From assembly GCA_903813345.2 (NCBI GenBank), contig CAIIXF020000010.1:22829181-22893180 (forward strand): a DNA stretch of 64,000 nucleotides. The letters run 5' to 3'. The notes under the pieces are model-generated. The model did not search any database. It saw only the letters and a list, made by a program, of their open reading frames with translations, and was not told the origin of the DNA. The position numbers and the translations under genes are program-made. Shown in pieces: positions 18,147-50,345 of the stretch (positions are counted from its first letter, which is position 1; each line of letters starts with the position of its first letter). The stretch is from Owenia fusiformis. Taxonomy: Eukaryota; Annelida; Polychaeta; Sabellida; Oweniidae.

Positions 18147-21100
18147 GTAAGTGAAGCCATCTTAGATCTTCATTTTTTTAAAAGTGAAAATGAAATTGAA
18201 TTTCAATTTGAAATGAATTTTATGTTCTTTGATTGATATATATTATTATATTGCAACCAATTCATTTTCAAAATCTCAGAGACTTATCGTATATTTCACA
18301 GGAACTTGTAGCACTAGACTATGAGATGCTTATCATGTCAGATCTGAGTCAATAAGACTCAGACATAAACATTATCATAGTGCTACAAGTTAGTCCCTGT
18401 GGTATTACCCCCATAAATGTGGGGTTATTTTGAGTTTTTTTATATTTAGGACATTTGTTTCTCAAAATAACCCCACAAAGTTTAGGCTTTGATTCTTTGC
18501 GGTTTTTTTCACATGATTTGAAGATTCAAGTTCTGACAATATCGGCAGTTTCCTTACCTTTTTTCTTCTCTTCTGTGAAGAGGATTCTTTTTCCAATGTA
18601 ATGAGCGATCGATCAGTGGAAACAATACTTTATAACTGGAACAATTTGCTGTAATATTTGACTCTCGAAATCTATTCAAATTTTGGCCATTTTCGCGCGT
18701 TGCATTCTGGGAGGAATTATGTGGTAGATGGGAAACTTAACAGTGCCAAACGAAATCACCTGTCAAATTAATAACAAAATTATTGCTTATGCCTAAGTTC
18801 AGGAAAACAAAGGCCGTAGACGATACAGCAGCCAGACTTGAGGTTGAAAATCCTTTTAATACACCCCGGAAGGTGAAAATCATTTTTCAAAATTTCCCTC
18901 CATTTTTACTTTTGGATTTCGTATTTACACGAAGTTTGTCATTTAGATAAAAAATATCGACTGCTCATGAAATTTGAAAAACTTTTTTAGAAATATCTGT
19001 TATCCGTATTAAATCTTCATTACAAGAATGAATACAACACTTAGAGGGCTATATTTGGAAGCATGTTGAAGATTAATGTCTTGTCGATACGAAAAACATA
19101 AAAAAGTGAGTAAATTCTAATAATATTAGTACAAATTCTATGTGTATGCTATTGTTTAGCAAATCCCCAAAGAATCAAAGTACTAATCGGTGTGGGGTTA
19201 TTTTGAGAAACAAATGTCCTAAATATCAAAAAACCTCAAAATAACCCCACATCTATGGGGGTATGTGGTATATGTATATTTCACATAGAATAAATAGGTG
19301 CCCCTTACCTCCTGCAAAAGATATGTGGATTTTGATATAATAGCTTTCACAGCCCACTTGGACAGCTGAATAATAGTGACCTTTAAATCATGAATAATGA
19401 GAACCGCGGGTTACTTTTGGTCTCTAACTGTGGGGTTTGTGTAAAAAACCAGGTAACCTGGTGACTGGTAATTAACGTTCCTAGCAGGGTTAGGAATTTT
19501 TTTATTTATAACGTTGGATCTGGACGATACATGTACGTTATTTTCGACGTCACATTTTGAGGTTATTTCACATCGTAAGAACGTTTTGATAACGTTAACT
19601 TTTAACTTTACAATAACGTCGGTAATGAACCAATTTAGTGAGAACATATTGACGTTTTTGTAATGACCACATGACAGAATTTTTTGGGGAATATACATAT
19701 ATATTTTTCTTTCAAAGTTTCCTTCCCGGAAGTTGATTTCTGATTGAAATAGTTCAAGGCATGTGATAGGACAAATAGTTATCCAACACTCAATTTCCAA
19801 GCAGTAATCAGTACGAGTCCTACAATTGGCCATTGACCTGATTTAAACCATTTTCAATAGGTCAAGTGCGATCACGGGATCATTATATTTAAACATGTGC
19901 ATGCGCAAGAAACTGAACCAAAAAATGGAACCTCGCTTAGATTGCCCCTAAAGCAAAATATTTCTGAGCCATCAAATTGCTTCGAAATACGTAAAGAAAT
20001 GTGTGTTTAATCCTTCAATATAATTAATACCATTCAATGACAAACTAGACTCGCTAGAACGTTGATTTATTTATCGCATCCTACGACCCCCACTACGTTT
20101 GTGGTCCACAATCTAAAGTGGTCGTAGTATTCAACACTCCCCCCAGTTTAAAATGCCCAAGTTAAAATGCTCAATTCTGCAAGTGAAATTAGTGAATTCT
20201 GCAAGAAGAAAGGGCTAATTCTGCAGAAATTCCGTGGATATTCGCGGCATTTTTTTATATAATATAAATAACTGTTATTAATTTATGTCTTTGTTTAACT
20301 TTCTGACGAGAACCGAAAGAAAAACTAATGGTTTTCGAACCAGTAAACGGGAAAATATCGTGATAGTCAGGTAGTCAGTCACTACATACATGCTGCCATC
20401 TAACGGCAGAAATCAAACGATGGCGTTTAGAATTTTCACTTCGCATAATTTGGGTTATTTCTGCAAGGGATTTGACTGAAAACGTGTCAAATTGTTACAG
20501 GTAAGACTGACTTTTTAAACTTTTGGAAAATATATGGATTCTGCGGAAAATTCCGCGGAAATTGACCAAAATAGTTGATTCTGCAATTCCGCGGGCAGAG
20601 GCAAATTCCGTCCGCGCTCTGCAAACACGGAATCCTGGGGGCAGTGATTCAATAATGATTCAGACAGATACATAACAAAAGCGATACAACATTTCATCAA
20701 TTTATTCCGTCCAGTGTAAAAACGTGACTTTGAATTCCTTGAATATTTTTCAAGGGACGCAGTTTTTTGAAAGAGGATGCATTTTTTGAAAATCAGTACG
20801 TCCCAGGGACACAAACCTACTGAAATCACTGATCATTGAGCACTATTGTACTGATGTACTGTGAGTTTACAATATACATTTGTACAAATTGTTGTATAAC
20901 GATGATAACTGCTCATTGTGGACCCATCTGTACAGTACATGTATTTATATTATATAGACATCATATTTCTCTTGCAGCATCAGCTGGCGCCATAGGTAAA
21001 ACTTTCTAAAATTTCCACTAGATATTACAAAATATTATTACCATTGCTTATTTCGTGTGTGCTGTTGCTATGGTGATGGTATCTTTTCCTGCTGCACTTG

Positions 21101-24100
21101 TTACTTCCAATTGTTTAGAATGTGCACCCTCTCATCACTTGTTTGCAGTCAATATGCTTCCAGGTTGGATTATATTTACTCAATTACTGAGTATGAGCAA
21201 GAGTATTCCTTTATTATGCTTTAGTATTTTAATGTTCTGTAAATACATTATTTCCTCTTTCTGATTTATGCCTCAGAAAATTTTCACAAATAGCTCCCTA
21301 AATGCGGGAATTCACATTTTTAAGTTATTTAAAGAACATATTTTGTGTGTGCATTTAAATAAAAGGCAATAAGGCATTGAATGATCGCAAATTAATTGTT
21401 TTAATTTTTTTGCTTTGGAAGGTCCAATGTTATTACAGATATGACATTTTTAGACTCATGATAGCCTTGCCCAAGTCGGTATTTTTTTACTTATCTGATC
21501 TTGAATTATTACTGCCTTGTACAATCCAATACACCTGCGCTGATATTATGCAGAGTTATTCAACGGTTTCGAGATTTCCATAATACCTACGCTATCGGGG
21601 GTATCGCGAAACCTTATTGATTAACAGATATAGGCGTGGACAGTCTGGACACGACGTGTGACTTCAGGCTGATTGACCAAGCAAAAAAGTTATCAGGTTG
21701 ACCTGCATAAGCAAAGCAATCTTCCCGATTTGAAATTCAATGCCGATGATCTGATCGATCGTTTCTTTAGAGTTACAATATATTATGTAATTAAATGTAC
21801 ATAGGGAATGTAAGAGTCATTAATATAAATTGAATCATGCAATAGATTTAAAACTGATTTCGCGATGAAAATGCAAGACTGAGTCCAATGTAGCGGGTCA
21901 TGTAGTCGATCAGTGATTGAATCTCAGCCTAATGTTCATTTGAATTCAGCGATCGTTTCAACGTTTATTGTTGAAATCTTCTCACCTCCGGTTACCGATC
22001 GATGCTCCGGCATCCACTAAACTCTGATTGATATTTATCTGATAAAATGTTTGTATTTTCATGATGAATTCATGCAAGTTTGTTCGTGAAAAGTCCCGGC
22101 GAAAAGTAAAAAGTGTACTTGTTTTTGACCGTGCATAATAATGAGCTAACGCTGCAGGGCCGTCGTTGATTGGTCAAATTTTACCGACATAAACATTGAG
22201 TCGGTAAAGCACGTGGCTTTCTCTTTGGTACAAGGCGGTCATAATAGAAATCAAGATAGTAAAAGAGACCGACTTGGGCAAGGCTAGACTCATGAGAACT
22301 TGATTTATAGGGAATAGTATTATTTGCTGGGAGTGGGATGCCATACTGTGTAGCTCAGGTTTTCTAGTTTGGGTTTGAAAATGCATGTACAGTATTCATT
22401 TTAAGAGGGCTCCAATTTGATATTATCCTGCTTTAAAGACAACATTAAGACCTTAGATGCTTTGAAACCATTGTTTAGGCAGTTTGACAGATCCTTGGAA
22501 AATTGACTTCTATAGCATGTTTTAATTCCTAAGATATGTTATATGTTAATTGCTCTTCAGATTGATAATTCAGATTGCAAATTATCTGTATCAGGATCAC
22601 ATTTACTGCTTTTGACTGCTTAATTTCCCTTGCAAGTATGGATGGTATTTTGGTATACATGTACTTACAGGTTAGTTCCGTATGTTCAGAATTTTAATGG
22701 CTTCCTAATTGGAGTCCTTTGTTACTTTTATACATGGTTTACAGTTTTCAGTTTTGCACAGAGAACAGATAACATGGGCGTAGCCAGGGGGGGTGCGATG
22801 GGTGCGATCGCACCCCCCCCCCATAACCTTTGAAAATATGAAAAAAGAGCTTTAATGAGAAAAGAGCTTTAAAATGCTTTTTATTTGAAGCTTCTAGCTC
22901 AATTTTGAAGGAAGTTGCATCAATTTTTGTAAAATTCAAAAGAAATCTTAATTTTTTGTGTTGCTTATGGCAAAATCGCACCCCCCCCCTGACCGAAAAC
23001 TGAAAAATTTTCGGCGATCGCACCCCCCCTGACTGAAAGCTGGCTACGCCCCTGGATAAAGTAGGTCACTGAATTTTTGAATTTCATACATAGTAAAAAA
23101 TTATTTATCCTCAACCCTGAAGTCATATGTCATTTTCAGGAACATATCACTAACTCCATATGTACATGGTCTACCTCTTCCAGTTTTGCACAAAGCGTAT
23201 AAAAATGCACCTAATGGTGCACACCTAATCATTAGGTGCATTTGTATACGCTTTGTGCAAAACTGGAAGAGGTAGACCATGTACATATGGAGTTAGTGAT
23301 ATTTTCCTGAAAATGACATATGACTTCATAAGAAAGCTATTAAAGTTTCTGAATATACAGAATTACCCCAAACAGTGTTGGAAATAGGGATTTTAGTGCC
23401 TGGTATATTTATCCATATACTTTGGAGCAGTAGATAAATTCATTTCATATTGGTTCAAAAATATATTGTATTTATTTCCAATTGACAATTCATCCACACA
23501 TTCTGAAATATCATTGACCATTTTTTATATAGACCAGTCATTTGGTTTGTGTCAGTGCCTTATTTCCTACACTGTACTTATTGTGATATTTGTGTGCTGT
23601 CTTAGCTATGCAGTAACAACTGCCCTCTCCCATTTATTCTTTCTCTTACAGCTGTTGATGTAGAATTTGGGTGAATGGTAATAGGCTTGATACAAGACTA
23701 ATTAAAAGTAGCTAGAGCTTTTTCAAAATGAATATCTTATCCTCTACAGGTTTTTATCTCACACTTTCCATTCTGGCTTTTGTTCTATTTTTGCTTTCAG
23801 GAAGACACATGATCAGCAAACCTAAAGTTTGAACATTCATAACAACCATTCTGTTATTATAAAAAAATAATCATTGTATGTAGTCATTAAAAGGAAAAGT
23901 ACCAATTTTTATGTATAATGCCAGCAATCAAACTAACTATTATGGTCAAGATTCAATTCAATTCAATTTATTAAATTAAAAATCAATCATATGTTTTATA
24001 CTATACATGAAAAAGACACCCCACGGGGCGTATACATTTCATGACTCATTAGATTTTCAACAATCATGTTTTATTTATAAACCAGTATCACCCTATGCAG

Positions 24101-27100
24101 ACAGAGCCTGTGGGAAATATTGGGTGCGGCGGAGGGTGCGGAGCTAACGGTCATTTTTGAATTTAAAATTGGGATATTTCTGAAACTAAGCCGTTTTGGG
24201 ACTTCAAATATACCAAGATATGTATATTTGACACCAAATATCAATAAAATTGTGAAAATAGTAGTGCAATTCATTTTATAGCGACGCAGTATGCCTTAAA
24301 CATTTCCCAGACCTATATATTTTGAGACTATCCTTTTAATACTGCGTCCCCAGCATTCATAAAAATGGTGTTCAAGATACACTACCCATGCAAATTATTT
24401 TTGCATCTTGGAAGCCAGGCAGTATCTGTGTGATTTTATAAAAATTCGGAAATGTTCTTCAGATATGAGCCCCTCTAAATATTGGGTGCGGAGCTACATT
24501 TATGGAGCTGCTCCGCACCCAATATTTAGAGGGGCTCATATCTGAAGAACATTTCCGAATTTTTATAAAATCACACAGATACTGCCTGGCTTCCAAGATG
24601 CAAAAATAATTTGTATAGATAGTGCACCTTGAACACCATTTTTTATGAATGCTGGGGACTCAGTATTAAAAGGATAATTTCAAAATATATAGGTCTGGGA
24701 AAGGTTTAAGGCACACTGCGTCGCTATAGAATGAATTGCGCTACTATTTTCACAATTGTATTGATATTTGGTGTCAAATACACATATCTTGGTATATTTG
24801 AAGTCCCAAAACGGCTTAGTTTCAGAAATATCCCAAATTTAAATTCAAAAATAACCGTTAGCTCCGCACCCTCCGCTCATTTGCTCCGCACCCAATATTT
24901 CCCACAGGCTCTGTCTGCATAGGGTGAGTATATAAACCAGATATAAATGCAAGATTACTGTATGATTACAGCATGATAATTATGTTCATCCGAATATTTC
25001 AATGTATTTTTACTTTGACTCATTTATATAATTTGAAAAAATGGAATATTACCGAGCAACCCCACTGTGAAATATGTTAATCTGGTATGTAATATGTAAT
25101 GAGACATCCTTTCATGTTTCAGCTCCAGTGTTGCTGTGCCAGACTTGTGGTGACTCATGGCATCAAGGACGTATGTCCTCTCACAAATATGTCCTACTGA
25201 CCTCTAAGGTAATTAAATCAAAGGGGGAACTTTGGCTTAATAACGCAGATGCGAGTAGGTAGTTACCAGTTTCACCACCAGGTGGCTCGTTCCGGTCAGA
25301 TAGCATGGCGGGTATAGAAGAAAGTTCCCTTTAACTTAAATTACATCTGTTTTAGTGGTTCAATTTTCATATATCCCTTATATATATAATATTTATGCAA
25401 ATTAAAATATGTCCAGTAAAAGAAAATGTTATCTGTCCAATACAAGAAAAGATATTTCACTTTTTGTGATTTTGTAACACAGGGTCTATTGGGAATCAAC
25501 CCGAACAAGAAGTCACATTTTCAAAAAAATTGAATTTTCAAAGTTGATAAACAACTTTTGAAACCAAATTCTTTGATGTACTTTTACATGAAGATTTCAA
25601 ATATGACATCACTTTGACTTAATTTTGAATATTTAATAACGTAAATCAAGATTATTTCTACTCGCATCTAGTCTATTCAGATAGTTGATTATCTCTCTCA
25701 ATGTTAAGACTGATTTGATAAATTTATCATATGAACATATATATTAGCATACAGGTAATGCTAACTATTGTTTTCAGCAACACAAGACAGAAGTCCGCAG
25801 TAAGCTTGACAAATATTTGAGGTACTTTGTAATCTCTTTTCCATTTTACTAATTTTTTAAAACATTATTACTGTATGATCATCCCAAATTACAATTTCGA
25901 ACAAAATGTAATATCAATTAAGTACATACATTTTTGAGCAAAGATTTTTTTTTTTTTTTTCTTAATTGTAGTGTTTCATTTCAGCCAAACCAAATCTATA
26001 GACAACAAGATCTCAGAGTTAGGTCGAGTTAAAACAGACCTTCTTGCCAGGTAATATTATCAATCAATATATACTAATATATATAATGTCAACTTGAGTT
26101 GTCTCATTCAAGGTGGTCTACAAAATTTGTTCCATTGCGATTAACCATTGAATTCCACCTAACCAAGTAAAATATGAATGCCAGATATTGCAATAATTGC
26201 ACCATACAAACTAACAATATTTTATTTTAATATGGTCAAACATTATCTGAAATCTAAGAATTTAAAGAAAACGGTTTTACTTAGATTGAAGTTGGCTCAT
26301 CCAGTGAACTGCTATGAAACAATATTTGTGATGATTAGTAGTCATTGTTTGTGATGATGAGTCACTCTGAAAAAATTGCCTTAACAAAGTCTTTTGGAAA
26401 GTATTAATGCAGACTTAACAACTCTCAGAATGTGCAAAGATTAGACGTGTCTTTAGCATTTTGTTGCATTTCCAGACAGCAAATTTTTGTGCGAAACATC
26501 CAAGAAACAGTTACCTCTGTACAATCAAGACTCAAGGACAAAGGAATGGAGATGGTGAAAAAGCTCAAAGAACATGATCAAGCCAAATTTGAAGGTCTCC
26601 AAAAGAGTGAATTGGCTCTAAAAGAAACATTAGATGAAATAAAGAAGGTAAGCCATGAACACGGTGAGCAAACAGTCTGGGGTCAATGGAGAACACTGGG
26701 GTCATTCCCGGTGCGGTATGGTTGCTCACTGTGATGAAAGTGCTCAATTCTAAAACTACTTTCACAGTTAAGTTGTTTTCCAGGATTTTTTCTTATAGTC
26801 TTGAGTGCATGGGCAGAATATTTATTCACAGATACCAGAATTATGTATCTATGCACATATTAATTTTGCATAAATTTGAACTTCCAGAAATGCTGCATTA
26901 TTAATTCATCAGGGCATATTTTTACGTAATTAACACTTTTCTCAAAGAAAATTTCACCTGATATTGATATAAATGTAAGTTTTCGTTGAGAAAAAAATAA
27001 ATTTCCTCATGGTTGAATAATATAAAATAGATAGATGTAAGCTATTCTGGTGATGAAAGTATTCCTTTCTAAATGTTACGCAATATGTCTTTGTAGATTG

Positions 27101-30100
27101 GCCAACAAGTAGGGGTGACTCTTAAATTAGAGCATAGTATGGAAGTATTCCTTTCTAAATGTTATGCAATATGTCTTTGTAGATTGGCCGACAAGTAGAA
27201 GTGACTCTTAGATTAGAGCACAGTATGGAAGTATTCCTTTCTAAATGTTATGCAATATGTCTTTGTAGATTGGCCGACAAGTAGAAGTGACTCTTAGATT
27301 AGAGCATAGTATGGAAGTATTCCTTTCTAAATGTTATGCAATATGTCTTTGTAGATTGGCCGACAAGTAGAGGTGACTCTTAGATTAGAGCACAGTATGG
27401 AAGTATTCCTTTCTAAATGTTATGCAATATGTCTTTGTAGATTGGCCGACAAGTAGAGGTGACTCTTAGATTAGAGCACAGTATGGAAGTATTCCTTTCT
27501 AAATGTTATGCAATATGTCTTTGTAGATTGGCCGACAAGTAGAAGTGACTCTTAGATTAGAGCATAGTATGGAAGTATTCCTTTCTAAATGTTATGCAAT
27601 ATGTCTTTGTAGATTGGCCGACAAGTAGAAGTGACTCTTAGATTAGAGCACAGTATGGAAGTATTCCTTTCTAAATGTTATGCAATATGTCTTTGTAGAT
27701 TGGCCGACAAGTAGAAGTGACTCTTAGATTAGAGCACAGTATGGAAGTATTCCTTTCTAAATGTTATGCAATATGTCTTTGTAGATTGGCCGACAAGTAG
27801 AAGTGACTCTTAGATTAGAGCACAGTATGGAAGTATTCCTTTCTAAATGTTATGCAATATGTCTTTGTAGATTGGCCGACAAGTAGAAGTGACTCTTAGA
27901 TTAGAGCATAGTATGGAAGTATTCCTTTCTAAATGTTATGCAATATGTCTTTGTAGATTGGCCGACAAGTAGAAGTGACTCTTAGATTAGAGCACAGTAT
28001 GGAAGTATTCCTTTCTAAATGTTATGCAATATGTCTTTGTAGATTGGCCGACAAGTAGAAGTGACTCTTAGATTAGAGCACAGTATGGAAGTATTCCTTT
28101 CTAAATGTTATGCAATATGTCTTTGTAGATTGGCCGACAAGTAGAAGTGACTCTTAGATTAGAGCACAGTATGGAAGTATTCCTTTCTAAATGTTATGCA
28201 ATATGTCTTTGTAGATTGGCCGACAAGTAGAGGTGACTCTTAGATTAGAGTACAGTATGGAAGTATTCCTTTCTAAATGTTATGCAATATGTCTTTGTAG
28301 ATTGGCCGACAAGTAGAAGTGACTCTTAGATTAGAGCACAGTATGGAAGTATTCCTTTCTAAATGTTATGCAATATGTCTTTGTAGATTGGCCGACAAGT
28401 AGAGGTGACTCTTAGATTAGAGTACAGTATGGAAGTATTCCTTTCTAAATGTTATGCAATATGTCTTTGTAGATTGGCCGACAAGTAGGGGTGACTCTTA
28501 AATTAGAGCATAGTATGGAAGTATTCCTTTCTAAATGTTATGCAATATGTCTTTGTAGATTGGCTGACAAGTAGAAGTGACTCTTAGATTAGAGCACAGT
28601 ATGGAAGTATTCCTTTCTAAATGTTATGCAATATGTCTTTGTAGATTGGCCGACAAGTAGAGGTGACTCTTAGATTAGAGTACAGTATGGAAGTATTCCT
28701 TTCTAAATGTTATGCAATATGTCTTTGTAGATTGGCCGACAAGTAGAGGTGACTCTTAGATTAGAGGACAGTATTGAAGTATTCCTTTCTAAATGTTATG
28801 CAATATGTCTTTGTAGATTGGCCGACAAGTAGAGGTGACTCTTAGATTAGAGCACAGTATGGAAGTATTCCTTTCTAAATGTTATGCAATATGTCTTTGT
28901 AGATTGGCCGACAAGTAGAAGTGACTCTTAGATTAGAGCATAGTATGTTTGAACAGGAAATAGAGCCATGGGAAGCTAAGGTAATGACAGTTTTACAACA
29001 GTTCATTCACATCACCTCCATAATGTGCTTTCTTATTGTATAGCTTCATCTCTCTTCAAGAACAAATAACACAAACATGTACATTGTTTATGCTTTCTAT
29101 TTACTCTAGCTCTAGTTTCCAATATTTTGGTTATTGTTTCCCTTTTTATATCCCCTCCAAGAAGTATTGCAATAATTTATGAGGTGACATTTTGCTATGT
29201 TGATATCTTGTATTGAAATATTCATTTCTTGTGTTCCAGCTCACAGATGTTGACACAAGTGGGCTTATAGATCCTCTCCCTTCCTTTGATACTCAGTTCA
29301 CTGTTGACTATAGACCAATTAATAATGCTGTGGAGGAACTTACAATTAAGATTGCCACAGAAGGTGAGAATGTCCATATTTTCCTATGAAGTTCAAATGT
29401 TATGCACCATATTTTAAGATTCATAAGATGACAGACCACCAACCCACTTTGTTAGGAAACATGCTGCAATTGAATCCTTACATTTCTATTGACAGTCTTT
29501 TATCACCCATCTACCAAACAAAATGGATTATGTTTTGTTATTGGTATCATGTTTCCAGAGTGAAATGAAACATCTTTCCAAACCTCATTGGAACAAATGA
29601 CATAAACACAACATGTTTAGGTCTCTCAATATTGTAATTGTAAAAAGGAAATTTTGGTTGATTTTAAAAAAGTATCTTGTTAATGAAATAAAATGTTTAT
29701 CTTGAGTTTTATCTATTTTGGGTGATTTTGTTTTAATTTTTTGAATACTTTTTTAAAATCAACCAAAAATTCCTTTGTATAACTATAATATTGAGAGGTC
29801 TAAAAACATGTTGTATATGCTATTTTGTTCCAACAAGGTTCGGAAAGACATTTTATTTCATTCTCAAGAATTGGTAGAAAGAGCAAAAACAGTTGCACTA
29901 AAAAAACAAAAAAATGTTAACAAAAACAGTCATATAAAATACTTCTAAATAAATAATTTTCACATTAAATTGTTGTCAATCAGTCAACATTACATAAATA
30001 CCGTGTTTTTTACAGAATGTTTTCAATAATTGGTTTAAGAGAAAAACATTGTTGAATTCAGTTCTCCATATCGATACCAATCCTTTGAACTTTTAGTGAT

Positions 30101-33100: not shown

Positions 33101-36100
33101 GAGCGGAGTCTTTGGGTGTTTAGGTGAGTGACAAATATGAGATGAGTTGGTTGACTGGAAAAATCATGTTTTCCGCGAGATTCCGTGCCAAAACAAAAAT
33201 TCTGCAAAAAATATGAAAATGCAAATTTCTGCGGTTTTTCTGCGGCGACGCGGAATCACGGAATACTAGGATGAGGGATATGGTAATTACAGTGTCCGTT
33301 GTCCCGTATCTCATTTTGATCGGTTAAATTAAATACTTTATTTCGATTTTAGAACATTATTAACTGTACAATGAGTATTAAGACACTTTGATTGATTGTT
33401 GTACCAAAGGAATTTAGTCTCGGTACTCTATTAAACATACAGTTCATGAAAATCTAATTGAAGCGACGGTTATGTCCGCCATTTGTGACAACAGTGTCTG
33501 ACTTTACCGTTGTCAGGCTATTCCGAGGTGATTGTGATAATGATCCATCTGATTAAAATTATGAGCATGCTTGATATCTTAGATTTCTATATGTGTCAAA
33601 GGATTGGAAAGGACATGCAGGATGAAATATATATTTTAGAGAAAATGTTTTTGTTGCATTACAACCTACCACTTTCCCTAATGTAGAACATCCATTGGCT
33701 ACTGTTGATGAGGTCATGTGACACTGAAGCATTGTATGCGATGCAATATGAAAGGCCTTTGTTGTAACTCATAGCCCTACACGTCGGCAACTTGCTACAA
33801 AATCTAGCACAGTCCAGTATAGTTTTTGATCTTGCAGAAGAAAATATTTCATATTTTGAAAGTGCAAATAGGTTTCCCTGGTAGTAGAATGTTGTCATGT
33901 CAGTATTCAGCAACACACCTAAACATAATTGTTAAATGTATGAAAGCAATAGACTAGATGCAAGTAGAAATAATCTTGATTACGGCATCAAAAATTAAAA
34001 TTCTGTCAATAGTACAACAAAGTGATATCATATTTGAAATCTACATGTAAAATTAGAAGAAATACTAGAAATGTATCTTTAGAATTTGTTTATCATTTTT
34101 TGAACATGTGACTTTTAGGTCGGGGAGGTTCCCCTTATATTGTATTGTAGTGTATTTTGATGTTTGTTATCTATCCAAAATTAGCCACCTAGTGGTGAAA
34201 CAGGTATTACCTACTGGCATTTAGGTTATTGAAACATATAATGAAATATAATTATGATTGGTTGAGAACTATTCCATTTCATAATGTTTCATCTGTAATA
34301 AATTAGAGTGTCTTACCTTTATAGATTAAAGTGAGTGTTATCAAAAAATACAGCAAGCATTTTACAGACATTTTATTCGTTCTTCTAGATGTTTAAAGAA
34401 ATAAGTCTGTGGCAATAAATTTATTTCCCTCTTCCAGCATAATATAAACAAGCTGTCATCAATTTGTCAATCATGTCATGTCAGATCCTCTCTATTACTT
34501 TCTTAATTTCTTTATATTCCTATCTATTTTTGTTTCAATTCCTCTATATCTGTATATTTCTATTTCTTTGTTCATTCCTCTCTATTTCTCTCTACATTTC
34601 TCATTATTTCTTTCTATCTATTTTTCTGTTAATTTCTTCTCTTTCTGTTTCAATTGTACTTGGTCTTTTCTCATTGAATTGTAATAATGTAGAATCTTTT
34701 GTTGATTCAGATATGATGGAAACTGTTTAATAATGATGGACAATTAGAATGCAATTTGTCAGTCGTTGATTCTCTTATAACTATTAGTAAACCATTTACC
34801 TTCTTCATAGTATTTACTTACATTTTGAGAAAAATATTTATTTATCAATCAGTATAATATTATTGCACTTTCCTAATGATGTTTTAGCTGATGAGTTAGG
34901 TTGTGTATCATTGTTTACTACTCTGACAGTTCAATGCAATGTTGTACACATACAAATTACATTGGGTCCCGTACAAGCTCATACGAGCCAAGAGAATTAC
35001 GAGTCATTACGGGCAAAAAGGAGCACAATCCTTGTACCGGCTCGTATGGAGCTCTTTTTCGAGGCCCCGTTCTAGCTCGTACGATGCTTGTAATTGTTGT
35101 TTTCGACAGCCAGTGGGGAGTTCCAAGTTTGATAGTCCATTAGGAAGTTTATGATTTAATTAATAATCATTTTCATTACATTCTACTGGTAGTGTATGGG
35201 GTTTAAACAAACAAGATTGAGTATATGAACTGAGGCACTGAAAAGAAACTACAATAAGACCACCTATAGGGTATTCACATTTCCAGGATCTCGATTTAGA
35301 TAGGTGTTCTGTTGAAATGTTCACATTTTGAAGTGTTTATATTTCAAGGTGCACTTGAGAGGTGTTCATACTTTGAGGTATTCACTCAAGAGGAGTATTT
35401 ACTGAATTTATTAAAAATTCAAAAGTATAGAAGTAGAATGCTGAACATTGAAATATAATTATATGAGATGTAACATATATATTTATTTTGTATTTGTAGA
35501 GCCTCCAGCAGATTTACCCCTCAAACCAGAAGGTCCTATAGTGCCAGAGCCTGGTGTATCCTCTGTCCTGTACACCAGTTCTAGGCTCACTTCTAAAGGG
35601 ACATTCTGGGCCCAGATTGCTATGACACCAGAGGAAAATGAATACTTAGATAGGATAAGCTACAGTATCAGGTATTGTGAAACTTGCTTAAATCATGCGT
35701 TTTTTCAGTAGATCAGAATTCACTTTTCAAATTTTGTAAATCAATATTTAGTTAGTCATATGCTTTTCATAAAACTCATGAATCTGACCGTCATATCATC
35801 TTACTGGGAATCGTGAAATATTCAATTATTTTGACCAGATTTGTCATTTCTTTGACAAAGAGAGTTTTACATCCAATGAAAAAATGGTGGTAACGGTACA
35901 TGTAAATGTTTAACACAGGACATTTAAACTCCATATTCATCTGTTCTTTATCTTGTACATGTATATTAATCATGGCTTTATGTTATAGATCTGACTACAT
36001 ACAACAGGCTGACATTAAGCCATACTCAGAGATTGATGAAGTGTTGAAAGTTGGGGACTTGTGTTTCGCCCGCTACCAACATGACTTTAAGTGGTACAGA

Positions 36101-39100: not shown

Positions 39101-42100
39101 GATACAAGCCCTGATCTAAGTGATAATAGTGAGCCAATCTGCCCAAATGAGCAAGTGGACCAATCCCAAAAAGCAACCATTGAGCAAACTGTTTCCTGTG
39201 AAACTCCCAAGTTCCAGCCTCTTGCATCTAGTAAAAATTCATCCCCAGAATCAGTAGCTGTGAAACATAATATAGAAACTGACAGTAGTGCTAAAGTGGA
39301 TAATGCCAGTGATAAGGAATTACTAAAAAGTGCTGTATATCAAGTAAGGCCCATGCTGCCGGGTGTGTCCACAGAGCTAATCCAACCAGAAATAAGGGAC
39401 GATATAGAGACTGGGGTTGATTTGAGTACATCTGATGAATTTGTTGACACTGTTGAACCAGAGAATTTCACTTCCGATGGAGCAGATAGTGAAGCTCCCA
39501 AGCCTGCCATTAATCCAATTGCCAGAACAGAGGGAGATATGGAAACTTTCAAACCTTTGGTAGACTCAAAGACAGATTCTGAAGGGAGTAAAGATAAATG
39601 TGCTCCCAATTCAGAGCTTGATCCAAACACAGATACAAATAAGTGGGACTTGGAATCTCGAAAAAATGAGCTAAAACCCATTATAAATGACAAAGAGGAT
39701 CTAGAAACTCAACTAGAGCTAGAAGCCAAGTCTAATGTTATAGAGGATTTAGAAACTCCTAGACCTGAAATTGTCTCAATATTGAGTGTTGAAGGAAATA
39801 AAGACACTGGTAAACATATGACCAATGGCCTTGTGAATGCAGAATTGGATATAGAAGCCTCAAGGGCCACTGTACAAGAAAAGATAGAAACCTTAAAGAC
39901 CACTGTAGATAGAAATATAGAAACCTCAAAGACCTCAAATTCTGAAGGAAAAATAGATGCCTATAATACTAATGCACAAGGAAATGCTGAAACCTTAAAA
40001 CTCACTTTAAATGAGAATATAGAAATCGCTAATACTAATAAAATAAGGAATAAAGAATCCTCAGAGTCAAATAAAGGATCAGTTGGGATTGTCCCTCTTA
40101 TGGATATTCAGTTGGAAAAAGCACCACTCAGAGAGACAACACCAGTGAAGGAGATAATACAAGGTGAACATATACAATTGTTATATAGCAAGACTTTGAG
40201 AATATTCGATAGGGGATGGGTTCAGCTAGAAGTTAATACTTGTTCATGTTCATAGAAATAGTTGAGAAGTTGTTCTCATTTTACAAGAATTATGTTGTGA
40301 GTTTGATCATTTTGTGATCATTTTATTACTTGAGTTTTGTTACATTTTCTGTTTTAGAAGCCATCAGTTCAACAGAAAGCAAGTCAAAGATAGTGCCTTT
40401 AGGTAGGTAATCTAGATTGTTAGATGTAAGTTCCCTGTCTAGATCTAATTTAGGCATCTATTGGTCAAAATGTCTCAGATTCATGTATCGATGAAGCCGT
40501 TAATGTCCAAATTGTTCTTTCTTACATACAGCTCTAAGTGCATTCATTTGAATGATCAGAACTAAAAACTCATCAAAATGAAGGCATATTTTTTGTTGAT
40601 TGATATATTTTTCTTGTCTATACAGGTCAGTCTAGTCCAGGTAGTACAGCATATTCTAAAGTATTCAAAAACAGAGTCAAGGCAGTTGGAACCAGCTTTC
40701 AGGCTAGTGTGACATCACAATTGGAGAAAAATGCCACCTTTTGGGCAACGTATTGCCATGATGACAAAGCTGAAGAATTATTTGAGATATTCAAACATGA
40801 TCTGATGTAAGAAATAATTTAGAAACAGTTTTGCGTATTACTTAGGTTTTACTTGTTTAACTTAAAAGTCTGGACCATTATCGTAATGCTAGATTTGCAA
40901 TCATTATGTTCCATTTTTCAATTGCATGTTTGAGAGCTTATATATGACCTATATTGTAGTGCAGAGTGTTATGTCCATTTGATGAGATATCTAATCTTAA
41001 ATCCAAGTGCCCAGATCTTTATTTCATAGTGTAAGCCAATCAGATCAAATATTGAGTTCTTTCTCCTACTCATATTTATGAAAATACAGAATATTCCAAT
41101 TCTTTCAAACATTTCTTTGCCCACCTTGATTTATTTTTACCCCTGTGTAGAATTGCATATGTACCTTTACATAACATTAGTGCCTATTTATTGGTAGACA
41201 TTACTTTGCATGCATATCGTTGCATGGACTTTCTAATTTAATAGACTAGGAATGTACATATATATTGATTTATCTGCATTTTAGAAAGTCTGCCCAGATG
41301 ATGTCTCCTCCAAAACCTGTGGCCCCAGGTCAACTGCATCTTGGACTCGACTCCCAGAAGCAATGGGCCAGAGTGAAAGTGACATCTATACCCAATGAGG
41401 ACTGGGTAAGAGCTAATTACCCTTCACAAAATATTCAATACATTTTCATGAGTTATTTAAAACTTATTTAGATCATAAAGTTAAGTTAAATTAATTTCAC
41501 ATGCATGCTTGTTTTTAGAAATAAAAATGTATATTTTTGAAAGGATTGGTAAAACAGAGAACAGAAACTCAAAGTATATATCATTAATGGGTTTATCTTT
41601 CAGATTAATGTTGACTTTATAGACCTTGGGAAGAGTAGCTCCATTCATGCCTCCACCCTGCGTAGACTACCCAACAAGTTCCTATCTATTCCATGGCAGG
41701 TAAGCTGCACTAATTTCCCAAATAACTTGTTGGAGTCTAAAATAGAAAATGATATTTGACAATATCTGTGTTTGCTTTAGCTTGCTATGCTATTCATATA
41801 ATTGATCTCTGTAATAATAATGTTACAAGTGTTACGATTCTGGGTAATATCTATTGCCATAGCAACAATTCATAGTACTGAAAACACTCTTACACTTCTT
41901 ACATATTGATTGAGACTTGAGAAGTCAGGGGAAGATTGACTTGAAATCATACAGTGATCACTGAAAGACATGTAAAAGATATTTGCAGAAATGAGGCAAC
42001 AACAATAGTTAACAATGCCAATGGACTATACTAGATCAATCCACAAACTAATACTTTGTGCCATCATGTGGTAACAATTTGTCATGCCATTGCCCTTTAT

Positions 42101-45100
42101 CGTATTGTGCTATGGTCTTGGATAATTGTGCTCATAGTAGTGGGTTTATCTAACTGTGCCATGATTGTAGCTAATTGTGCTGATTGTGATTGTAGTCTGT
42201 CAAGTGCCAGCTGAAAATACCAGAGAGTGTACTCCCAGAAATCTCAGTTGGGTCAGCCAGGATCTTCCAACAGCTTACAGCAGGGAAACAGTTGCAGTTT
42301 GTCGTGGTATGTACTATATACACCAAGTATCATGTTGTGGTGTGTACTATATACACGAAGTATCATGTTGTGGTGTGTACTATATACACGAAGTATCATG
42401 TCGTGTTTTATACACCAAGTATCATGTCGTGGTATGTACTATATACACCAAGTATCATGTTGTGGTATGTACTATATACACCAAGTATCATGTTGTGGCG
42501 TGTACTATATACACGAAGTATCATGTTGTGGTGTGTACTATATACACGAAGTATCATGTCGTGTTTTATACACCAAGTATCATGTCGTGGTATGTACTAT
42601 ATACACCAAGTATCATGTTGTGGTGTGTACTATATACACCAAATACTATGTTGTGTGGTATGTACTGTATACACCAAGTATCATGTTGTGGTATGCACTA
42701 TATACACCAAGTATCATGTCATGGTATGTACTATATACACCAAGTATCATGTTGTGGTATGTACTATATACACCATACACCAAGTATCATGTTGTGGTAT
42801 GCACTATATACACCAAGTATCATGTCATGGTATGTACTATATACACCAAGTATCATGTTGTGGTATGTACTATATACACCAAATACTATGTTGTGTGGTA
42901 TGTACTATATACACCAAGTACTATGTTGTGTGGTATATACGATATTCGTACAATAACATGTTGTGGTATGTACAATTTTGTACAATGTTCAGTATACACC
43001 AAGTACCATGTTATTGTAAGTACAGTGATAGTATGTTTTGATATGTACAATAGATGCCTACTGTGAAGTTTGTACATTAAAACATGCAGTATTGTGTTCT
43101 TCATTAAAAAACTGGATTCAAGTTGTACTTTTACAAATGTTGTGGTTGTGTAACACTTAGATACTGTGGTGAGAAAAACCTAGCTTCCAGTTAATAATTT
43201 AATGAAAACTGTAAAATCAAGAACTTGATCTTGAATGCTAATGATTAAGTCATCTCACATGTAACAAAGAGACTATGGAGATGGTATGATCAATATTAGC
43301 AGACTGGGCTTTTTATTAAAAACTGTAAAGAATGTTTTGATTTTAGGAGGCTTGTAAGAAGGAGAATCCTGTAGTTGTCACTGTCTTAGATACTCTACAA
43401 AATCAGCCAATCAACATCAACAGCCTCACATTCAAAGATGGTTAGTCAACTATTATTATTATCTCTTAAAAATGTTAAGTAGGGGTCCTATTAAAATGTC
43501 AGTGTATTTTCTTAAGTTGGGACTACAATCAGGTCCCACTATGCATTTGATATGGGGGCATTGATATGGCATTAATGTGACATCATTGTCAGTTCAATGG
43601 TATCAATAAACACTTAAAATGGACTTTTTATCCTTTCCAAATAGAATAACAATAGCAATAATGACATTTTGTATTTGACCAGCCCATTTATTATATCTGT
43701 AAATATCTAAATATGTTTCATGAACCTGTTATGATAAATATATGAACTTTCTAATTATAACATACACAATGCACATGCATTTTGAGAAAAAATGATATAC
43801 TGTAGAAAGCTTATGAATGACTTTAACAGTGTGTAGTTTATTAACCAATAGTTCTAGTTAGATTAATCATAGATTTGTGTGCCTCTTTGGCTTCATTTGC
43901 ATTTTATGCTTTATTTCATGATTCTCATATTTTCTGTGATAAAACTTCCACTGTTTTTCTTTCGGAATTCTCACTATTGGATTTGTGCCTTTTTGTAAGT
44001 GCACTACTATTTTTGGCCTTTTCTAACTGGTACTTAATGTGAATGAGGAAGCTGGTAATGGAAAGTATGTCAATCATGATGCTTATGCATGATGGCTTGC
44101 CTGACTGAGTGCCTCTAACTTGCAGCACCAGAGAGGCATGCATACAACAGAAACAATTGCTCCCCTGGAATAGATATGCACCAGGATATGCCCCAATCAA
44201 TCAGAGGGGGACCACACCATCCACAGCTCAATCTGAATTTTCAAAGGTCACCACATACATTTTATGCCAACAGACCAGCTAAGAGCCCTTCACCGCCAGT
44301 ATTCCCTGGGATGGTGTTACCAGATTTTAGCAAGCCACCTCCAAAGGTTCCCCTGAGACACCCTGGTCCTCTCCCTAGCCCACCCTTAGGAATTATGCCC
44401 CCTGTCTCCCCAGGATTCCTACCCCCAGAGGCTCAAGCAGGAGTTCACTGCTCTATGTATATACCACAGAGTGACCCTTTGTGTGGACGGCAAGTGTATC
44501 ATCGTGATAGACACATTCTTGAAGCCATAGAACCTTGCCATGATGGTGGGAAAAACGCTGCCATCCAGGCAGTTATAAACCAAGCAAGGAAAGACATGGG
44601 AGTAGGCTCGCATGTAACTCAAGCAATGTTTGATGAGAAATTTGCGAAGCAAGCAATTTTTGATCAAACCAAAAAAATTCAACAGGGCCCTGCTTATCAA
44701 CCAGGTTTTGATCCAGGAATAAATAGATTCCAACATGCTGCTCCTAATCAGTCAACTCTTATTCCCAGGACCAACAGTTATAGACAAGTGTTTGCTAATC
44801 AAGCAACATGTAATCAAAGGGCAAACAATTTCAAACAGAGCTCATCTCATCAATTAACATTTGATCAAAGAACCAACAGTTACAAAGAAGGCTCTATGAA
44901 TCAAGTTACATACGATCCAAATACTCATCAAGTAACATCAGAATCAAGGTCCAACAATACCTGTGAAGGTTCTGCTAATCAAGCAACATTTGATCTCAGG
45001 ACTAACAATTCCCAACAATGCTCTACTAGTCAAGCAACATTTGATATTAGAACCAATAATTCACAAGAATGCTCTCCTAATCAAGGAATATCGGATCCTA

Positions 45101-49764: not shown

Positions 49765-50345
49765 TACTGAGGCTATATACACCCAGTCAATATCATACCA
49801 TGGCTATATACACAGGGAATATCATATCATGGCTATATGTACCAAGGGAATACCATAACATGGTTGTATATACCAAGGGAATATAATACCATGGTTATAT
49901 CCACATTGGGAATATCATACCATGGCTATATACACCCAGTGAATATCGTGGTATATACACATAAGGAATATCATACCATGGCTATATACCCAGTGAATAT
50001 CATAGCATAACTATAGGAATGTCATACCATGGCTATTTACACAAAAGGAATATAGCATGGCTAGATACGCATTGGGAATATCATACCATGGTTATATACC
50101 AGTGAATAGAATATCATACCAAGGCTATATAGCGAATATCATACCATGGTTATAATAAATGCCTTGGGAATATCATACCATGATTATATACACCCAGTAA
50201 ATATACCATGGCTATATACACATAGGGAATATCAAACCACTGTTATATTCACATGAGGAATATCATATAAATATCATACCACAGATATAAACACATAGGG
50301 AATACCATACCACATATACCATGGTTATACTTAAAAACACCCAGG
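49765..50345. repeat. Degenerate 30-40-bp minisatellite downstream of the Tudor gene
   Basis: About 15-18 imperfect units built on ggctatatacacccagtgaa and tatcataccat. Unit length is irregular. The core ctatatacacc...agt...atatcat resembles the unit of the minisatellite at 42296-42960. Confidence 0.8.

Follow-up and report, generated by a model that had tools for sequence, protein, structure and literature searches.

Minisatellite arrays over a splice acceptor and a splice donor in one Tudor-domain gene of the annelid Owenia fusiformis

Minisatellites that lie over exon-intron boundaries have been described in amphioxus under the name of mirages. According to PMC3087553, they occur at both 5' and 3' boundaries, undergo concerted evolution and are unstable in length, with haplotypes of six and three units, and reverse-transcription PCR suggests that splicing is regular. 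The cases presented there and in PMC3902484 are Adh3, the globins BflGb6 and BflGb9, TnC and PGBD5, the last being a lancelet gene with two mirages, one over a 5' and one over a 3' splice site (PMC3902484). Here we describe two tandem arrays that lie over splice junctions of a single Tudor-domain gene in the annelid Owenia fusiformis. The window that we analyzed is a 64,000-nucleotide stretch of contig CAIIXF020000010.1 (GenBank assembly GCA_903813345.2, positions 22,829,181 to 22,893,180 of the forward strand), and coordinates below are window positions. One array repeats the acceptor of exon 7 in 22 copies with intact splice signals, and the other repeats the donor of exon 19. At both of them the gene model of the deposited protein, P0001, takes the copy closest to the body of the exon.

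The acceptor array was the top of 30 rows returned by Tandem Repeats Finder (27053-28947; period 86, 22.0 copies, 97% matches, 0% indels, score 3594). A copy-by-copy alignment likewise contained no indel over the 22 copies; 10 of the 86 positions are variable, eight copies match the consensus exactly, and the largest divergence, seven differences, is that of copy 1. These results bear out what a first-pass annotation of the same DNA had reported, an 86-bp unit repeated 22 times without an indel. Its end coordinate of 28947 agrees with Tandem Repeats Finder, but the array starts at 27053 rather than 27054, and the exon that it had numbered 6 is exon 7 of 23 in the deposited model. In each unit 44 bp from the end of the intron are followed by 42 bp from the start of the exon, which begins at unit position 45. 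The 45 coding bases previously assigned to the unit are reached only when the ATG just after it is included.

The branch-point-like TTCTAAAT, which was identified by motif alone, the AG and the acceptor TGTCTTTGTAG are kept in 22/22 copies. When scored with a small matrix built from the other acceptors of the gene, each of copies 2-22 reaches 6.8, a mid-rank value (11 of 22 among the gene's acceptors), and copy 1 reaches 5.6. Because copies 2-22 score equally, the acceptor itself holds nothing that singles out the last copy. What distinguishes this copy is its position. As the first-pass annotation had recognized, the rest of exon 7 and a good donor adjoin only the last copy, whose acceptor is 78 nt from that donor and which borders, in our reading, a purine-rich exon remainder. 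The donor (AAG/gtaatg, the slash marking the splice junction) ranks ninth of 22 among the donors of the gene. On the 3' side of the last copy the sequence continues as ATGTTTGAAC, compared with ATGGAAGTAT for earlier copies and ATTGAAGTAT after copy 20. The introns flanking exon 7 are 2255 and 259 nt long; by their coordinates, the first array acceptor is 449 nt and the last 2255 nt from the exon 6 donor.

In the gene model, P0001 joins exon 6 to the 22nd acceptor. Splicing to any upstream copy would lead to a premature stop with 16 exons still to follow. For 20 of the 21 upstream copies this stop is a TAG after 33 codons, as had been proposed for all of them, and for copy 18 it is a TGA after two codons. 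The further proposal that the last of the 22 acceptors must be picked holds if P0001 is to be made; however, skipping exon 7 also preserves the reading frame, giving a protein of 1484 aa. The published Owenia gene set was built with RNA sequencing (RNA-seq) junctions, Mikado, Augustus and PASA, and PMC9977687 gives 31,678 of 31,903 transcripts as RNA-seq-supported. We infer that P0001 derives from this gene set; the figure supports the set as a whole and says nothing of the exon 6-exon 7 junction itself.

The protein translated from hand-built exons, used as a query of 1180 aa, matched the deposited O. fusiformis P0001 at 100% over its length, and 23 exons in the window reproduce the 1510 residues of P0001 exactly, with every intron GT-AG (Table 1). 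P0001 carries two Tudor and two CCHC zinc-knuckle stretches, and its solved-structure matches (13 sequences) are Tudor proteins, e.g. TDRD3 and TDRD1. The earlier description of the locus as a germline-type gene is a presumption from these Tudor domains. No orthologue covering exon 7 was found, as residues 1-250 of P0001 matched P0001 alone among 941 scored candidates. With the 1180-aa query, the best 7998 candidates by shared words yielded P0001 and five turtle TDRD1 proteins, the latter matching 6-11% of the query. Exon 2 is an 18-nt micro-exon (20978-20995) that is required for the exact match to P0001.

Table 1. Coordinates of the gene, the two arrays and the splice signals associated with them.
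Feature	Positions	Strand	Basis
Tudor-domain gene, 23 exons, 1510 aa, identical to P0001	18059..47678	+	exact reconstruction of P0001
Exon 6, coiled-coil-like in our reading; donor gtaagc at the start of the 2255-nt array-bearing intron	26476..26647	+	P0001 gene model
22-copy array of 86-bp unit (intron end + exon start)	27053..28944	+	Tandem Repeats Finder, which ends at 28947 since the following ATG matches too
22nd (last) copy, acceptor used in P0001	28859..28944	+	hand-built exons, P0001 gene model
Branch-point-like TTCTAAAT of last copy	28873..28880	+	motif only; common to 22/22 copies
Acceptor TGTCTTTGTAG of last copy	28892..28902	+	score 6.8 (copies 2-22; copy 1, 5.6)
Exon 7 of 23, 78 nt, phase 0-0	28903..28980	+	P0001 gene model
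Exon 7 donor gtaatg	28981..28986	+	P0001 gene model
Exon 19, 111 nt, ending ..TTTGTCGTG at first donor-array copy	42196..42306	+	P0001 gene model
33-bp unit array repeating the exon 19 donor, 21 units counted	42300..42973	+	Tandem Repeats Finder, unit counts

The second array repeats a donor. Exon 19 ends in ..TTTGTCGTG/gtatgt, and from there a 33-bp unit, made of about 7 exon bases and 26 intron bases, repeats on to about 42973. The donor position is GT in 18 of the 21 units and GC in one, while two are without a donor. P0001 is made with the first donor, joined to exon 20 (KQLQFVV/EACKK in the gene model); the second or third would insert 11 or 22 residues in frame. Among the 18 donor-bearing units past the first (17 GT, 1 GC), seven keep the C-terminus and 11 lose it. 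Since those seven would also serve, the choice of the first donor in the gene model is thus not forced by frame. Splice-site score alone does not predict it either, because two later copies score 6.7 versus 5.1 for the donor used. Taken together, these two points make a choice of the exon-proximal copy a little more credible, and one rule describes both arrays in the deposited model: the copy bordering the exon body is used. The units of the human IFI6 (6-16) minisatellite also carry splice donors (PMC4526556, citing Turri et al. 1995). However, as summarized in PMC4526556, downstream donors are used in IFI6, with three mRNA species, whereas the deposited Owenia model has only the first exon 19 donor and the larger Owenia array is made of acceptors.

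About 2 kb beyond the gene lies a degenerate 31-bp array of about 17 copies (49771-50309), which has CTATATACACC and TATCAT in common with the 33-bp array. The resemblance between the two units was equalled by 1 of 2000 letter shuffles, so the intronic part of the 33-bp unit could be a member of a dispersed class of minisatellite. Homology of the 86-bp to the 33-bp unit was rejected, as 459 of 500 shuffles were as good.

We then compared both arrays with the amphioxus mirages, as far as PMC3087553 and PMC3902484 describe them. In Owenia, as in amphioxus, the units span an exon-intron boundary, both types of boundary are affected, AG or GT is kept in many copies, and the authentic copy is used, in Owenia according to the gene model. 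The boundary inside the 86-bp unit is that of a real gene, with 44 bp of intron and 42 bp of exon in a model identical to P0001, and intact signals are found at all 22 acceptors and at most of the exon 19 units. In mirages, edge copies also stand outside concerted evolution; a pattern of this kind could be read from one edge of the 86-bp array only, copy 1 having seven differences from the consensus but copy 22 just one. The closest single case in these descriptions is BflGb6, in which intron end and exon start are duplicated as in the 86-bp array. The Owenia array differs in having 22 copies, compared with six or three in BflGb6 and two to seven, depending on the assembly, in PGBD5. It also differs in its 86-bp unit, against 150-160 bp in BflGb6, in having no indels, and in belonging to an annelid and not a cephalochordate. 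The presence of two arrays over junctions does not prove that junctions are favoured, because a unit placed at random in the gene would span one, with 3 nt or more to either side, in 11.4% of cases for 86 bp and 4.0% for 33 bp, and by our count Tandem Repeats Finder has rows at about eight places in the gene.

These observations are probably best explained by a mirage-type minisatellite that expanded over the splice junction and is tolerated because the copy adjoining the exon is mostly used, with some leakage into nonsense transcripts. An 86-bp segment across the intron 6/exon 7 junction would have been duplicated in tandem, probably between an intronic and an exonic ATG triplet, and unequal exchange may then have brought the array to 22 copies. 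Such growth would itself have lengthened intron 6 and left 21 upstream copies as intron, presumably neutral as long as splicing mostly takes the copy that adjoins the exon body. The discriminator could be exon definition, the last acceptor being the nearest to the exon 7 donor and to the purine-rich remainder of the exon. In a human dataset, the site nearest across the exon is favoured when flanking introns exceed 250 nt (PMC9225289). A discriminating role for RNA structure was not found in three folds, those of the unit, the unit plus the next intron half, and exon 7, which are no stabler than shuffles (z of -0.16, 0.51 and 0.89). The same process would have acted at exon 19 on the donor side. 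That the second array repeats a donor suggests minisatellite growth rather than a device for acceptor choice, and together with the amphioxus arrays it would argue for a passive reading of the acceptor array. The exonic changes are also what one would predict for non-coding upstream copies: by our reading, six of eight changes in the exon half alter a codon or introduce a stop (the stop in copy 18) and two are silent, which would indicate no coding constraint.

Several points weigh against passive growth with use of the last copy. Use of the last acceptor is known only through the gene model, and a predictor could have chosen it as the sole copy that keeps the frame. Exons starting at copies 21 and 20 would be 164 and 250 nt long, still ordinary sizes, and the intron downstream of exon 7, at 259 nt, is barely above the 250-nt limit in the human data. 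Even when both flanking introns are long, human acceptors show only a reduced preference for upstream sites (PMC9225289). The choice of the last copy is therefore not guaranteed, given the ordinary exon sizes and the merely reduced preference, and with so short a downstream intron some leakage into stop-containing transcripts is to be expected; by this route the array should somewhat lower the output of the gene. Two exon 19 donors that outscore the one used, and the lack of divergence at edge copy 22, also sit uneasily with the passive reading. Finally, diversity is lower in the intron half of the unit than in the exon half (mean pairwise difference 0.0062 versus 0.0423), in an array whose copies 2-22 differ by 0.019 on average. 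This could mean selection on decoy acceptors. We do not claim it, because the contrast is weak and built on few independent changes (binomial p of 0.03 without copy 1 and 0.10 with it), and a CpG is the site of two exonic changes.

Alternatively, the array might be a regulated or length-dependent decoy, a kind of role for which the first-pass annotation had speculatively named a splicing timer, dosage control through nonsense-mediated decay and an allele-length-dependent regulator. The 21 upstream acceptors would then compete with the last, full-length output would fall with copy number or shift with splicing factors, and nonsense-mediated decay would clear the rest. The intactness of all 22 acceptors, the equal scores of copies 2-22, the premature stop within 33 codons from every upstream copy (21/21), with 16 exons remaining, and the lower diversity of the intron half would all suit such a device. 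There is also a precedent for length-dependent splice choice at a repeat by an acceptor: in canine merle PMEL, the length of a repeat at an intron-exon boundary decides which acceptor is chosen (PMC7349775). The likeness to Owenia lies in the boundary repeat; the PMEL repeat is a short interspersed element with a poly(A) tail rather than copies of the native acceptor, and the effect is shown in PMEL only. On the other hand, the amphioxus mirages seem to leave regular splicing undisturbed (PMC3087553), and the exon 19 array has no comparable stop logic, as the frame stays intact to the C-terminus from 7 of its 18 later donor-bearing units and is lost from the other 11. We regard a regulated decoy as unlikely. 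A broader version holds that this is a protostome gene tuned by mirage length, each 86-bp copy adding one more full-strength, stop-ending decoy acceptor, such that copy-number alleles grade the amount of Tudor protein, and that splice-junction minisatellites are widespread in minisatellite-rich animal genomes; this we consider quite improbable.

An artefact of assembly or polishing, with a true array that is much shorter or of another length, or with a second haplotype collapsed, appears very unlikely. Minisatellites are hard to assemble at their true length, and the draft amphioxus genome seems to contain one misassembled mirage (PMC3087553). However, the published assembly, from which this contig presumably comes given its exact identity with P0001, used PacBio reads with an N50 of 25.75-30.75 kb, a length that can span an array of 1.9 kb, together with Illumina polishing (PMC9977687), and the copies bear individual variants at 10 positions.

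UBC, a repeat gene, likewise carries its dual-specific splice sites as a tandem array (PMC10809524), with AGGT serving as donor and acceptor between coding units. AGGT is absent from the boundaries of the Owenia units, which read AG/ATT in 22/22 copies. Recursive or mini-exon splicing, in which upstream copies would let the intron go stepwise, was rejected on the same ground and deserves scarcely any credence: every unit has an acceptor, and GT dinucleotides occur within units in donor-like settings, but with ATT after the AG the joining of exon 6 rebuilds no donor, and the donor-like sites score at most 1.7 in the units and 2.2 just past the last copy, versus 9.4 for the real donor.

Elsewhere in the gene, intron 2 contains near-perfect long inverted repeats (24088-24927; 237 nt at 95%, 134 nt at 96% and 42 nt at 100% complementary), and a further pair, of 99 nt, lies at 23118-23328; in our reading both look like inverted-repeat elements. 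Within intron 8 there is a minus-strand open frame with a PAN domain (33662-33931; 7.8e-06). The 1908-nt coding exon 14 contains a 33-bp repeat of 2.5 copies (39851-39934). Exon 21 may have an alternative acceptor (ACTTGCAG/CACC) lying 1968 nt before it, and splicing there would start a long in-frame exon (44126-46402); the frame through it stays open for 2166 aa, compared with 1510, and contains a 51-bp repeat at 44971-45116. No known RNA family at gathering score and no tRNA were found within the window.

Splice-boundary arrays of this kind are already known from lancelets, and the Owenia gene is a striking new case of them, not a proven switch. Our literature search, made by title and the start of the abstract, found no annelid splice-boundary array, which is weak evidence of absence as most subscription papers were outside its reach. 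As far as these searches show, what is new here is the phylum, the copy number and the presence of two arrays in one annelid gene. With an acceptor array and a donor array in a single annelid gene, mirages would seem to occur outside lancelets as well. A single intron of this gene holds 21 acceptors of equal score and a slightly weaker first copy; the branch region, the pyrimidine tract and the AG are common to them, and position is their chief difference. Only one of them yields P0001, making the array a natural test of position alone in acceptor choice, a choice that exon definition explains only partly in the human data (PMC9225289). If leakage scales with copy number, length variants of the array would form a natural allelic series for splicing-coupled decay.

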